Assembly: GCA_903850425.1 (NCBI GenBank)
Contig: CAINLR010000131.1
Span: 1-64,000 of the forward strand
Reading direction: 5' to 3'
DNA length: 64,000 bases
Source: an uncultured Verrucomicrobia subdivision 3 bacterium
Lineage (GTDB): Bacteria; Verrucomicrobiota; Verrucomicrobiia; Limisphaerales; UBA11358
The notes under the pieces were generated by a model. It saw only the letters and a program-made list of their open reading frames with translations. It was not told the origin of the DNA and did not search any database. Of the stretch, positions 4,683-45,359 are shown one piece after another (positions within the stretch are counted from its first letter, which is position 1; each line of letters starts with the position of its first letter). The position numbers and the translations under genes are program-made.

Positions 4683-4790
4683 GAGACATTCGACATTCAA
4701 CATTCAACGCCCAACTTTCAATGTTGCGGCGGGCATCCCTGCTTTGGGTGTTGGATGTTGGGTGTTGGATGTTGGTTGTTTTCCTATTTA
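4683..4790. repeat. Word-like inverted repeat between exbB- and exbD-like genes
   Basis: The left side repeats ACATTCAAC (GACATTCAACATTCAACG) and the right side repeats GTTGGATGTTGG-type words (about 4747-4777), which are roughly complementary, so the transcript can fold back. The middle carries TTGCGGCGGGCATCCCTGC. Because it is read in the same operon, it may attenuate or separate translation of the two genes. The style matches the repeat at 42868-42987. An open frame runs from it into the exbD-like gene, but I regard that extension as fortuitous. Confidence 0.65.
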
Positions 4791-5233: not shown

Positions 5234-5246
5234 GAAAATCCAAATC

Positions 5247-5300
5247 AAAAGCTCCAAACCTCAGCCCGTGGCGGCTTGAAGTTTGGAATTTGGAGCTTTT
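5247..5300. terminator. Bidirectional hairpin terminator between convergent genes
   Basis: Perfect 12-bp arms AAAAGCTCCAAA (5247-5258) and TTTGGAGCTTTT (5289-5300) flank a GC-rich loop, with T runs at both ends. It lies between the exbD-like stop (5233) and the asd stop (5299), so it can terminate both. The right arm overlaps the asd stop codon. The wording (GCTCCAAA / TTTGGAGC) is shared with the repeat near the GH53 gene. Confidence 0.7.
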
Positions 5301-41847: not shown

Positions 41848-43002
41848 TCAATGGCCGTCGGATCTCGGCAAGGGCCGCGTATATTTATCAAAGACCGAAA
41901 GGACGGGCAGCGCGTTTCCGGCTTCGTCAAAAAAACTGCGCGAGCCGAGGCCGCCGCGATGGCCCACCGCCGGTTCCCACCAGAAAATTCCCTTGCCGCG
42001 ACCGTTGGGTGTGGCCATCACGATACGCGTCACTTCGTCCAGATAATCACGCTGACCGGCGGGGGTTTCCGGAAACGGCCCGCCGCGCTCGCTGGCTTCG
42101 CGCGCCGGCCGCCAGTTATAGGCCGTCTCCACGACGATGATGTCTTTGCCATATTCACTGGCCGTGAAGGCCAGATTTTCCCGGAGTCCTTCGAGGTTCC
42201 CATGCCACCACGGATAATACGAGAAGCCGATCACGTCGTAGGCAATCTTGAAACGTTTGAGCTTGTCGAAAAAATATTTCGTCTGCGCGATGTTCGCGCC
42301 CTGATCGAAATGGATCATGATTTTCGGACGCGATAATTTTCCACGTCCAGCCTCCACGCCTTTGATTCCCGCGCGCAGGTAATCGGCGAAATTATCCCAA
42401 TGCTCCGGCAATTTCCCATCCGGCCAGAGCATGCCCACGCGAACTTCATTGCCGATCTGCACCATGTCCGGCAGAACGCCCGCGTCACGAAACGCAGCTA
42501 CCGTATCGCGCGTATAGGCAAAAACATTTTGCACGCGCTCCTGGTGCGCGAGATTTTTCCAGGCGTCCGGCGTCGGCTGTTTGCCGGGGTCGGCCCACGT
42601 GCTCGCATAATGAAAATCGAGCAGGAATTTGTAGCCCAGCTTTTTCGCGGCCTGCGCCATGGCCAAAGTATATTTCAAATCGTTCGGCAGATTGCCGCCG
42701 ACCGGCTCGACAAAAACGCGCAGGCGAATCCAGTTGTAACCGTGATTCTTGAAAAGCTGCAAGCCGGGCAAGGCGTTCGTGCCGTCCTTGAAGACAGTGC
42801 CGCGCGCTTCCGCCTGTTTCAGAAACGACAAGTCCGCGCCGAACGCGAAATCGGCAGCGCGGGCAGAAAAGCTCCAACCGCCCAGCACCAAGCTCCAGAG
42901 AAGCAGCAAGCGCCAAGCACGAAACAACCGCCGCGAAGTTTTTGGAGCTGGGCGGTTGGGATTTCTCTGGTGCTTGGATGTTGGTGTTTGGAATTTTTTC
43001 AT
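41848..43002 (-). CDS. Arabinogalactan endo-beta-1,4-galactanase, GH53
   Basis: 384 residues. The mature enzyme starts near ADFAFGADLS and shows GH53 motifs: YNWIRLRVFVEP, DFHYASTWADPGKQ, acid/base Glu186 in QIGNEVRVGMLWPDGK, FSYYPWW, and nucleophile Glu292 in VVETAYNW. It cuts beta-1,4-galactan side chains of rhamnogalacturonan I to galacto-oligosaccharides for the GH2 enzymes encoded next to it. The signal peptide (LLLLWSLVLGGWSFSARA) lies within a word-like inverted repeat. The start at 43002 lies two bases after the GH2 stop, indicating coupled translation. Confidence 0.92.
   Translation of the reverse strand: MKKFQTPTSKHQRNPNRPAPKTSRRLFRAWRLLLLWSLVLGGWSFSARAADFAFGADLSFLKQAEARGTVFKDGTNALPGLQLFKNHGYNWIRLRVFVEPVGGNLPNDLKYTLAMAQAAKKLGYKFLLDFHYASTWADPGKQPTPDAWKNLAHQERVQNVFAYTRDTVAAFRDAGVLPDMVQIGNEVRVGMLWPDGKLPEHWDNFADYLRAGIKGVEAGRGKLSRPKIMIHFDQGANIAQTKYFFDKLKRFKIAYDVIGFSYYPWWHGNLEGLRENLAFTASEYGKDIIVVETAYNWRPAREASERGGPFPETPAGQRDYLDEVTRIVMATPNGRGKGIFWWEPAVGHRGGLGSRSFFDEAGNALPVLSVFDKYTRPLPRSDGH
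42868..42987. repeat. Word-like inverted repeat encoding the GH53 signal peptide
   Basis: The left part holds GCTCCAACCGCCCAGCACC and AAGCTCCAGAGAA; the right part holds their complements in shuffled order (GGAGCTGGGCGGTTGG, TTTCTCTGG, TGCTTGGATGTTGG). The words match those of the repeats at 4683-4790 and 5247-5300. On the minus strand it is translated as most of residues 5-45 of GH53. Confidence 0.72.
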
Positions 43003-43004
43003 TC

Positions 43005-45359
43005 TTATTTTGCCGAAGCCTTGAACGAAATCTCGGTGCTTTGCAACCCCGGCGCAGTCGCCGACAAAATAATTTTGCCCTTCGCGGCCGTCGCCTTCAC
43101 AAACGCTACACCCTCGCCTTGGAACGCGCGGCGTTCGCTCGCTTGAAACGGCTCGTGGCTGATGGTGTCGCCGCTGTCCACGCACGCGATGACGCCGGGG
43201 CCGGAAATTTTGAATGACATCAAATTGTCCGCGCGCGGCACGGTGCTGCCGTCCGCATCCACAACCCGGGCGCGCACGATGGCCACCTCGTCCCACGTTG
43301 GTGAAAGTTTTTTGGTTTCTGAGGACAAAATAATTTTCCTCGCCGCGCCGGCGGTTTTCAATTCATCGGCGGCGACAATTTTTCCGTTTTGATTTTTCGC
43401 CACCGCCTTCAACGTTCCGGCCGCAAATGCAACTTTCCAAATGCGCGGCGACGCATCGCGATTAATTTTTTTCGCACCGAGCGATTTGCCGTTGAGGAAC
43501 AGCTCCACTTCCTCGCAGTTGGAATAAGCCTCCACCGTTTCATCGTGCGGCGCGGGATTGCGCGAGGTCCAATTAGCAAACTCCACCTGCGTGTGCAATT
43601 CCTCGCCGCCGTAGCCGGGATCCGTCGGCATCCGGTCGTCCGGCGCAGTGCGGCGCATGATGCGGACCATCGGCGCATCGCTCCACCAGCTTTGGCGCTC
43701 GAACGACCTCGACTTCACGGCACCCGTGCGGTCGAGCAAACCGGAAGAATGATTCACGACGGGCCAGCGGCGTGATTCGCCGAGATAATCCACGCCGGTC
43801 CAGAGGAATTGCCCGGCGTGCGACGGATTGTCGCGCAGCCAGAGCCACGTCTCCCGATCATGCCGCTGTTCCGTGCCGACAATTTTCCGCGAGGGTTTGG
43901 CCCGTTGCGCGGCGAGCAGTTCATTGTCGCGATAATTTGTGCCGACCACGTCAAGCAAATCCGCGAGGCCGTTGTCGTAATCGTGGCTCACGTTGGGGCG
44001 GAACAACGCCTGGGTGACGGGACGCGTCGGGTCGTTCTCGTGGCAGACTTGCACGAGGTTGCTGGCAATCGGAATCGCTATTTCCGGCTTGGGCGTATCG
44101 TGGATTTCATTGCCGATGGAATAAAGGATCACGCTTGGATGATTGCGGTCGCGGCGCACGGTGTCGGCGGCGTCAATCTTCGACCAGTCATTGAAAAACA
44201 GGTGATAGTCGAAGGGATTTTTGGCGACCGTCCAGCAGTCGAACAATTCGTCCATCACGAGAAAGCCCATGCGATCGCACAAATCCAGAAACTCCGGCGC
44301 GGGTGGATTATGCGCGGTGCGGATGGCGTTCACGCCAAGTTTGCGCAATTCATTCAGGCGCTGCTCCCAAATCGAAAGCGGCACCGCCGCGCCAAATGCG
44401 CCGCCGTCGTGGTGCAGGCAGACGCCGTAGAGCACCACTTTATTACCGTTGAGCACGAAGCCTTGGTTGGCGGTGAATTCAGCCGAGCGGATGCCGAAGG
44501 TGTTTGTCACGCAGTCCAAAACTTTTTTGCCAGCGCGCACTTCGCTGACGATGGAATAAAGCCTGGGGTCGTTCAGCTTCCAAAGCTGCGGATGGGAAAT
44601 GATGATCCGGTCCGAGAGCTTTTCCGAAACCCCGGCGATGATTTCTGCGCCCATCTCGGCGCCCGCGACCGTTGTTCCGTCCGGCGTGACCATCTGTGTC
44701 ACCAGAGAGATTTTGTGTTTGAAAGCGGAAGCATTGGTAATGGTGGTCACAATTTCCACCGTTGCCTGCTTCGCGGAAATTTCCGGCGTGGCAATAAACA
44801 CGCCGTTCTCCGCGATATGAATTGCATCCGTCACCATGAGCCGGACATGCCGGTAAATGCCCGCGCCCGAATACCACCGCGACGCCGGCTGCGCCGACGT
44901 GTCCGCGCGGACGGCGAGGACGTTGTCGTCGCCGAAATTCAAGTGGCCGGTGAGTTCGTAGCTGAAGCTGACGTAACCACTCGGGCGCTGGCCGAGGTGA
45001 AAACCGTTGATCCACACGTCGCTGTTTTGCATCACGCCGTCAAACTCCACTCGCACACGGCTGCCGGAATCACTTTTCGGCAGCGTAAAATGTTTCCGAT
45101 ACCAACCGATGCCGCTGGGCAGAAACGCGCCTGCGCCGCCGGTTTTATTAGTCTCGGCAAACGGACCCTCGATGCTCCAATCATGCGGCACATCCAGTTT
45201 GCGCCAGTTGCCATCGGCAAATTGCGGCTGTTCCGCGCCGGGCGCATCGGTTTTGAGAAAGCGCCAGTCGCGGTCAAAGGATGCAGCATTCGCCAAACCG
45301 ACTGTGGTAGCGAGGGCGAGACAGGCCAAAAGTGCCGCTGTAACTGTTTTAGCTTCCAT
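43005..45359 (-). CDS. Beta-galactosidase-like glycoside hydrolase, GH2 (first)
   Basis: 784 residues, signal peptide (LLACLALATTVGLANA). Domain order: sugar-binding jelly roll (FDRDWRFLK, VPHDWSIEGPF), Ig-like domain, TIM barrel (GVCLHHDGGAFG, AIRTAHNPPAPEFLDLCDRM), DUF4982 and a C-terminal beta domain (GPGVIACVDSGD). Acid/base is Glu418 in SIGNEIHD; the nucleophile is likely Glu497 in VGTEQRHD. Beside GH53 it probably releases galactose from galactan oligosaccharides; beta-glucuronidase or other GH2 specificity cannot be excluded. The next gene starts two bases after its stop. Confidence 0.88.
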   Translation of the reverse strand: MEAKTVTAALLACLALATTVGLANAASFDRDWRFLKTDAPGAEQPQFADGNWRKLDVPHDWSIEGPFAETNKTGGAGAFLPSGIGWYRKHFTLPKSDSGSRVRVEFDGVMQNSDVWINGFHLGQRPSGYVSFSYELTGHLNFGDDNVLAVRADTSAQPASRWYSGAGIYRHVRLMVTDAIHIAENGVFIATPEISAKQATVEIVTTITNASAFKHKISLVTQMVTPDGTTVAGAEMGAEIIAGVSEKLSDRIIISHPQLWKLNDPRLYSIVSEVRAGKKVLDCVTNTFGIRSAEFTANQGFVLNGNKVVLYGVCLHHDGGAFGAAVPLSIWEQRLNELRKLGVNAIRTAHNPPAPEFLDLCDRMGFLVMDELFDCWTVAKNPFDYHLFFNDWSKIDAADTVRRDRNHPSVILYSIGNEIHDTPKPEIAIPIASNLVQVCHENDPTRPVTQALFRPNVSHDYDNGLADLLDVVGTNYRDNELLAAQRAKPSRKIVGTEQRHDRETWLWLRDNPSHAGQFLWTGVDYLGESRRWPVVNHSSGLLDRTGAVKSRSFERQSWWSDAPMVRIMRRTAPDDRMPTDPGYGGEELHTQVEFANWTSRNPAPHDETVEAYSNCEEVELFLNGKSLGAKKINRDASPRIWKVAFAAGTLKAVAKNQNGKIVAADELKTAGAARKIILSSETKKLSPTWDEVAIVRARVVDADGSTVPRADNLMSFKISGPGVIACVDSGDTISHEPFQASERRAFQGEGVAFVKATAAKGKIILSATAPGLQSTEISFKASAK

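Follow-up and report, generated by a model that had tools for sequence, protein, structure and literature searches.

A Limisphaerales intercistronic palindrome likely co-opted as the signal peptide of a GH53 galactanase

An interspersed palindromic element of about 130 bp, found mostly between adjacent genes across the order Limisphaerales, supplies nearly all of the N-terminus that precedes the catalytic domain of a GH53 endo-β-1,4-galactanase, and the likely explanation is that this intercistronic spacer has been co-opted as the signal peptide of the enzyme. The element is fused in frame to the GH53 gene, most orthologues have ordinary signals at that place, and the same arrangement recurs in other exported proteins. 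The sequence analysed (‘the window’) is a 64,000-nt stretch of contig CAINLR010000131.1 (assembly GCA_903850425.1) from an uncultured Verrucomicrobia subdivision 3 bacterium.

The GH53 locus and its N-terminus

The relevant features of the window, all on the minus strand, are as follows.

41848..43002 (−): GH53 endo-β-1,4-galactanase gene, 384 aa (Pfam PF07745, PDB galactanases)
43000..43002 (−): ATG start of GH53, between the upstream TAA stop (TAAGAATG) and the element (sequence)
43005..45359 (−): upstream GH2 glycosidase gene (Pfam GH2 domains)
42868..42997 (−): interspersed palindromic element, full length, GH53 frame codons 2–45 (covariance model R1; 24-copy alignment)
42942..42997 (−): left arm (5′ in the gene), polar basic n-region KKFQTPTSKHQRNPNRPAP (sequence, translation, repeat search)
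42868..42925 (−): right arm (3′ in the gene), hydrophobic core FRAWRLLLLWSLVLGGWSF (translation, core hydropathy)
42856..42867 (−): c-region SARA, cleavage motif of A-x-A type, outside the repeat (translation, orthologue comparison)

Pfam PF07745 (Glyco_hydro_53) covers GH53 residues 54–371 (E=1.8e-89), and the closest solved relatives are β-1,4-galactanases (PDB E-values down to 1.5e-49). Two bases separate the GH2 stop codon TAA from the GH53 ATG at 43000–43002, and the element starts about 7 nt from the same stop codon. From this ATG the N-terminus reads MKKFQTPTSKHQRNPNRPAPKTSRRLFRAWRLLLLWSLVLGGWSFSARA-ADFAFGADLSF, with the hydrophobic core LLLLWSLVLGGWSF encoded inside the element; the element leaves out of the signal no more than the start codon and the c-region SARA (residues 46–49). 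The initial annotation had assigned most of residues 5–45, core included, to an inverted repeat, which held, the extent being slightly larger (codons 2–45). A downstream start with its own signal, named there as a refutation, was not found: neither an ATG nor a GTG start codon occurs after the repeat and before the GH53 catalytic domain, and the post-repeat residues SARAADFAFGADLSF lead directly into that domain.

The window copy is built of heptad words, CCAAnnn and nnnTTGG, and was recovered by covariance model R1 at 42868–42997 on both strands (E=2.8e-25 minus, 1.5e-22 plus), although it was itself among the 24 training sequences of the model. Its inverted repeat has 28-nt arms (42864–42891 and 42942–42969) that are 82% complementary, with a better fold for the region than for its dinucleotide-shuffled versions (z=−3.45). 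No second full copy is present in the window. A weak, short member of the family lies at 5234–5299 (E=0.0018), directly after a stop codon. Another inverted repeat of the word type (CCAACA/TGTTGG words) lies at approximately 4690–4785 between two tandem genes; its stop-to-start layout matches that of the element studied here, and a similar one occurs at G000:C45:12315 (L032).

Assignment of the signal peptide rests on hydropathy, charge and the A-x-A motif, with neither a signal predictor nor export data. The first 30 residues carry a net charge of +9, as required of a positively charged n-region; core hydropathy is 0.82 (Eisenberg, 12 aa), compared with 0.64–0.98 in ordinary GH53 signals; and the A-x-A requirement is satisfied by ARA-AD directly before the mature domain, a c-region motif common to orthologues that lack the repeat (ARA-AE, SRA-AD). 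The n-region is the feature that does not conform, being approximately 30 residues, far longer than usual, if ATG 43002 is the start. A short n-region is usual in Sec-type signals but does not strictly define them. Conceivably, initiation at a later TTG within the repeat would bring the n-region to the usual length, and the signal would still be repeat-derived. No good Shine-Dalgarno match precedes ATG 43002 in the window gene; good matches precede the ATG in G016, L402, L404, L362 and L393, and are absent in others. Translation from ATG 43002, export and cleavage after ARA are inferred from sequence alone, there being no export data.

In-frame elements were found at the GH53 N-terminus in the window genome G000, in G026 (MRKHQAPTSKLQRNSNLQHPKKRSRTFGVWSVVFLWSLVLGIWSFPVHA-ADFAF) and G016 (MKFQAPTTKHQKSSNIQTPIAARRMFAAWRLMFLWSLVVGAWCFSARA-SEFAI), in each case with the start at the edge of the element and the c-region directly after it. 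The frame is open, and its length conserved, through the left arm in these three orthologues, and in G016 the start reads GGAGG-CGAA-ATG, with GGAGG four bases upstream of the ATG. Comparison with further orthologues, a check proposed in the initial annotation, showed ordinary signals at that place in most: about ten GH53 orthologues of the family (including L042–L051) have ordinary signals with a similar c-region, as in G015 (MNFKIKPVLLAVIALGGTAENFARA-AEFAF).

The repeat family, its placement and its coding potential

Non-self BLAST matches to the element occur on other contigs of the window genome (E down to 1.9e-9), and these similar copies, found by both BLAST and the covariance model, place the window repeat far beyond chance. 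The consensus of 24 aligned copies is AAAGCTCCAAGCACCAAnCTCCAAGCTCCAGAGAAACTCCAAGCTCCAAGCTCCAAA - loop - TTTGGAGnTTGGAGCTTGGAGnTTCTCTGGAGCTTGGAGnTTGGAGnTTGGAGCTTn, in which CCAA or TTGG tetranucleotides recur approximately every seven bases and are nearly constant, while the three letters between them vary; between copies the scaffold is constant, and the loop and length are variable. Because the words vary, a count of GGTGCTTGG, a short word, gave no genome-wide excess, and searching with the whole element was required. At E<1e-9 the covariance model detected 14 copies in the window genome, 8 in G016 and 29 in G026, and the element was found in 78/245 sampled genomes and 37/115 genera of Limisphaerales, records of near relatives carrying the names Limisphaerales or Verrucomicrobia subdivision 3. 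In being an interspersed, multi-copy inverted repeat, it resembles families of the MITE/palindromic class. A consensus hairpin maintained by compensatory changes was considered and is unsupported: the constant scaffold letters pair, and the variable slots hardly co-vary. No Rfam covariance model matched above its gathering score (best, a microRNA family, 24.7 vs 140 bits), and no paper describing the repeat in Verrucomicrobia was found in the literature searched, which omits most subscription journals; the intercistronic element has apparently not been described so far.

Placement was strongly intercistronic. Over both sets of copies (n=129; the sets are defined below), 103 lay between tandem genes, whereas convergent and divergent pairs flanked 12 each, and in tandem pairs the median distance from the upstream stop to the element start was 6 nt (quartiles 0 and 14). 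None of 71 first-set copies lay in the middle of a gene, and insertion into gene bodies was thus not seen among them; the sole copy flagged within a coding ORF was a degenerate one in G015, at the N-terminus of a GH115 gene. Where genes start after the element, the first in-frame ATG or GTG is often 4–8 nt past its end (...TTTGGAGCTTT). In many operons, for example L253, L258, L261 and L263, this constant 3′ end TTTGGAGCTTT was observed 5–6 nt before the downstream ATG. It is possible, judging from this spacing, that the element supplies a Shine-Dalgarno sequence for the downstream gene, GGAG being at a suitable distance. Positions are common to distant genomes at murB (G000, G016, G019), ispF (G000, G026), and kdsC and pilC (G026, G023), these names being assigned by reading the sequences. 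Copy number is very patchy in family f1 genomes, with dozens in some of a genus and none detected in many; positions are nevertheless shared between distant carriers.

The element readily reads like a signal peptide. Among 318 frames of 53 non-coding elements, 48% were open throughout vs 30% of shuffled ones, and 26% averaged above 0.55 on the Eisenberg scale over 15 residues vs 1.8% of shuffled ones, the right half being the hydrophobic one. Owing to the seven-base length of the words, whichever frame is read, polar, basic residues tend to come from the left arm and Leu, Trp, Gly, Val and Phe from the right arm, and a signal-like peptide is encoded on either strand of the palindrome. The hydrophobic core was stronger in coding elements than in the open frames of non-coding ones (p=0.003, in a small and partly related sample). 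In the GH53 elements of the window and G026, divergence at the three codon positions was 0.32, 0.28 and 0.19, compared with 0.17, 0.11 and 0.49 in the mature part; across the three GH53 elements compared, codon positions differed about equally, and coding selection was not seen in the repeat. There is thus no codon-type purifying selection on the repeat-encoded GH53 peptide beyond frame and hydrophobicity, although the even divergence arises partly because the scaffold letters are constant.

Recurrence in other exported proteins

Two sets of loci were analysed for read-through. The first consists partly of loci found by peptide search, and exported status within it was partly judged by reading; the independent set comprises 60 regions from ten other genomes, picked by covariance score alone and blind to reading frames. 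Read-through was scored by rule (a frame open from approximately the element start, a start codon before it, and no ATG or GTG within the next 15 codons), and gene calls were based on a simple codon score. By this rule 22/111 downstream genes read through the element, 9 of them from the first set and 13 from the independent one; nearly all are exported by family or by reading. Pfam families among them are GH59, GH2, GH32, PSCyt1/PSCyt2, MbnP/MauG, DUF3999, DUF362 and a multihaem cytochrome. Eight more were added by reading (GH115, NodT, a second GH2, a second MbnP/MauG, two DctP, a third DUF3999, and L400; loci L247, L254, L286, L287/L409, L369, L376, L381 and L400), the rule having missed them because a GTG or ATG lies within or beyond the hydrophobic stretch, or because the element is degenerate. 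GH53 appears three times among the combined cases. Two rule-based frames (L377, L387) look antisense, a third (L386) is uncertain, and several long open frames from the peptide search were rejected as antisense or as terminating in the repeat.

Element-encoded N-termini in the first set belong to GH59 (G023), a multihaem cytochrome (G026), PSCyt1 (G022, G023), a NodT-type outer-membrane lipoprotein (G018), GH2 (G016, G026) and MbnP/MauG (G000, G026). The independent set yielded PSCyt1/PSCyt2, GH32, two DctP, DUF362, three related DUF3999 from three genomes, and others, so the search for further exported proteins whose signals overlap the repeat, as initially suggested, gave many positives. Genes for cytosolic proteins (read as dnaG, mdh, murB, ispF, prfA, iscU and gltA/citrate synthase) start after the element, and their frames often have stops inside it. 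In a hand count of the first set, 13/18 exported genes had an open frame through the element compared with 7/33 other genes (Fisher p=0.0007, which is optimistic, orthologues having been counted separately). The initial description of the repeat as non-coding elsewhere is accordingly true of most copies, not all. It is likely, with export inferred, that the element has been used recurrently as an export signal, in some two dozen other exported proteins of about 15 families across the order. The leaders of two prepilin-like genes (L362, L385; FTLVELL-type motif) also read through the element.

The cleanest case of a signal ‘born from the repeat’ is PSCyt1, in which the G022/G023 pair forms one clade (support 100/99) nested among relatives with ordinary signals, indicating one derived gain kept over 32% protein divergence. 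Proximity of the start to the upstream stop recurs (TGA-ATG in G022/G023, ATGA in G015). Residues resembling a native core are still present after the element in L400, L376, L402 and L369; GH53 keeps the c-region only. These four loci suggest, by inference, insertion beside a start codon, after which the native core eroded.

The succession of insertion, fusion and erosion that we propose is likewise inferred. The element would be a Limisphaerales intercistronic palindrome filling the gap from a stop codon to the next ribosome-binding site or start. With a start codon just before it and an open frame, it would provide a ready-made n-region and h-region of a Sec-type signal; only exported proteins would tolerate such fusions, whose survival would be limited to exported genes, and the native hydrophobic core would then erode until the native c-region (here SARA) alone remained. 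In the window, translation of GH53 would begin at ATG 43002, immediately behind the stop of GH2.

Alternative explanations, precedents and significance

Within this explanation the history at GH53 remains unresolved, with repeated gains and a single gain followed by several losses both admissible. Monophyly of the three carriers is not recovered in the GH53 tree, which implies 3 changes and gives a single origin in 0% of bootstrap trees. The initial claim of a secretion signal born from repeat DNA is supported in silico, with export inferred and with carriers that do not form one group. The similarity among the three GH53 elements barely exceeds their similarity to unrelated copies, and pairwise similarity could not separate one ancient insertion from several. 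The genes flanking the element are informative. G015 and G016 have sister GH53 genes; in G015, GH2 and GH53 are separated by a GH115 gene whose ATG overlaps the GH2 stop (ATGA), and a degenerate element copy forms the GH115 signal, MKNLPAPKKSPGALGAWCWLLLGSLALGGGSFFARA-AD. The element after GH2 was thus observed as the GH115 signal in G015:C192 (L409) and the GH53 signal in G016:C162 (L284). The element seems to be anchored to the end of GH2, serving whichever exported gene follows (export again being inferred), and its presence in the common ancestor of G015 and G016 is therefore favoured. Whether it stood beside GH2 ancestrally and was lost many times, rather than being inserted three times, is a question compatible with the main explanation on which the evidence is evenly poised. 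In favour are the element positions shared by divergent genomes at murB, ispF, kdsC and pilC, the element common to G016 and G015 after GH2 that now serves different genes, and the fact that the window and G016 GH53 elements are mutual best matches among the copies compared; against it, the scattered carriers require several losses, and outgroup GH53 genes have ordinary signals.

An alternative to translation of the whole element is that the true GH53 start is a TTG in the right half (for example codon 26, MFRAWRLLLLWSLVLGGWSFSARA), the left arm being untranslated spacer and the signal of ordinary length. The lack of a strong Shine-Dalgarno before ATG 43002, the more typical signal of the shorter product, and an ATG at the matching place in the G016 loop speak for this. 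We consider it unlikely, however, given GGAGG four bases before the upstream ATG in G016, the open and length-conserved left-arm frame in three orthologues, and the stop-start proximity repeated in many cases, including G022/G023 and G015.

A less tenable possibility is that the open frame is accidental, the repeat a mere spacer, the N-terminus an artefact, and GH53 cytoplasmic or without a cleavable signal. The 48% of non-coding element frames that are open anyway and the even divergence across codon positions are consistent with this, but it is very unlikely: no ATG or GTG start intervenes before the catalytic domain, the orthologues examined have a signal peptide at the same place, the pattern recurs almost exclusively with exported proteins, in the independent sample too, and coding copies are more hydrophobic than non-coding ones. 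The reverse direction, in which the repeat descended from spreading signal-peptide coding DNA and intergenic copies are derived, is suggested by the signal-like peptides of both palindrome strands but is all but excluded by the mostly intercistronic copies, many with stops in the downstream gene's frame, by the constant CCAA/TTGG scaffold against a variable loop and length, and by the nesting of the PSCyt1 repeat-encoded signal inside ordinary ones.

The proposed co-option of the intercistronic element has one close precedent among the systems found, a single Yersinia protein. In putative exported protein YPO1552, residues 1–30 of a predicted signal (1–41), with its hydrophobic stretch, derive from a short palindromic repeat, the RU-2/YPAL palindromic MITE, and homologues have unrelated signals (Delihas 2007; PMC2759123, PMC2229807). 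That case concerns one putative protein of 144 aa in closely related genomes and a repeat unlike ours in sequence, whereas the Limisphaerales element recurs order-wide, in proteins of about 15 families that for the most part have a known exported function. Rickettsia palindromic elements (Ogata et al. 2000, described in PMC2229807 and PMC10969869) are likewise palindromes, of 100–150 bp, translated in frame in conserved proteins, and the 22 rule-based read-through N-termini share this property of lying in frame in protein genes; but those are neutral-looking inserts inside genes of many kinds, whereas the Limisphaerales element is almost never in a gene body and is N-terminal, where it apparently serves as a signal for export. 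ERIC/RU-1, Correia/NEMIS and REP/REPIN elements are also interspersed, intergenic and capable of folding into long hairpins, some with open frames fused to genes (PMC2229807), but lack the combination of heptad CCAAnnn words, ~130 bp length and location between a stop codon and the next start. The GTAG-tagged REPs of the verrucomicrobium O. terrae (PMC3733652) are short, and their tag is not in the Limisphaerales consensus. What is new here is the apparent recurrent, order-wide use, with a different repeat sequence and layout.

Random or repetitive DNA has often been proposed as raw material for targeting signals, and natural bacterial cases are few. On balance we lean, without great confidence, towards a bolder reading in which the element is a portable signal-peptide cassette for the whole order, with one half tending to be polar/basic and the other hydrophobic in any frame or strand, for which exported neighbours have repeatedly swapped their own signals, and which in one operon serves GH53 or GH115, after GH2, depending on the genome. 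The element may itself affect translation of operon genes, which is no more than a possibility, and gene callers may clip or misplace N-termini in Limisphaerales. A repeat family apparently used many times as an export signal, with ordinary-signal orthologues as controls and with apparent intermediates, allows direct tests of how signal peptides arise and are replaced.
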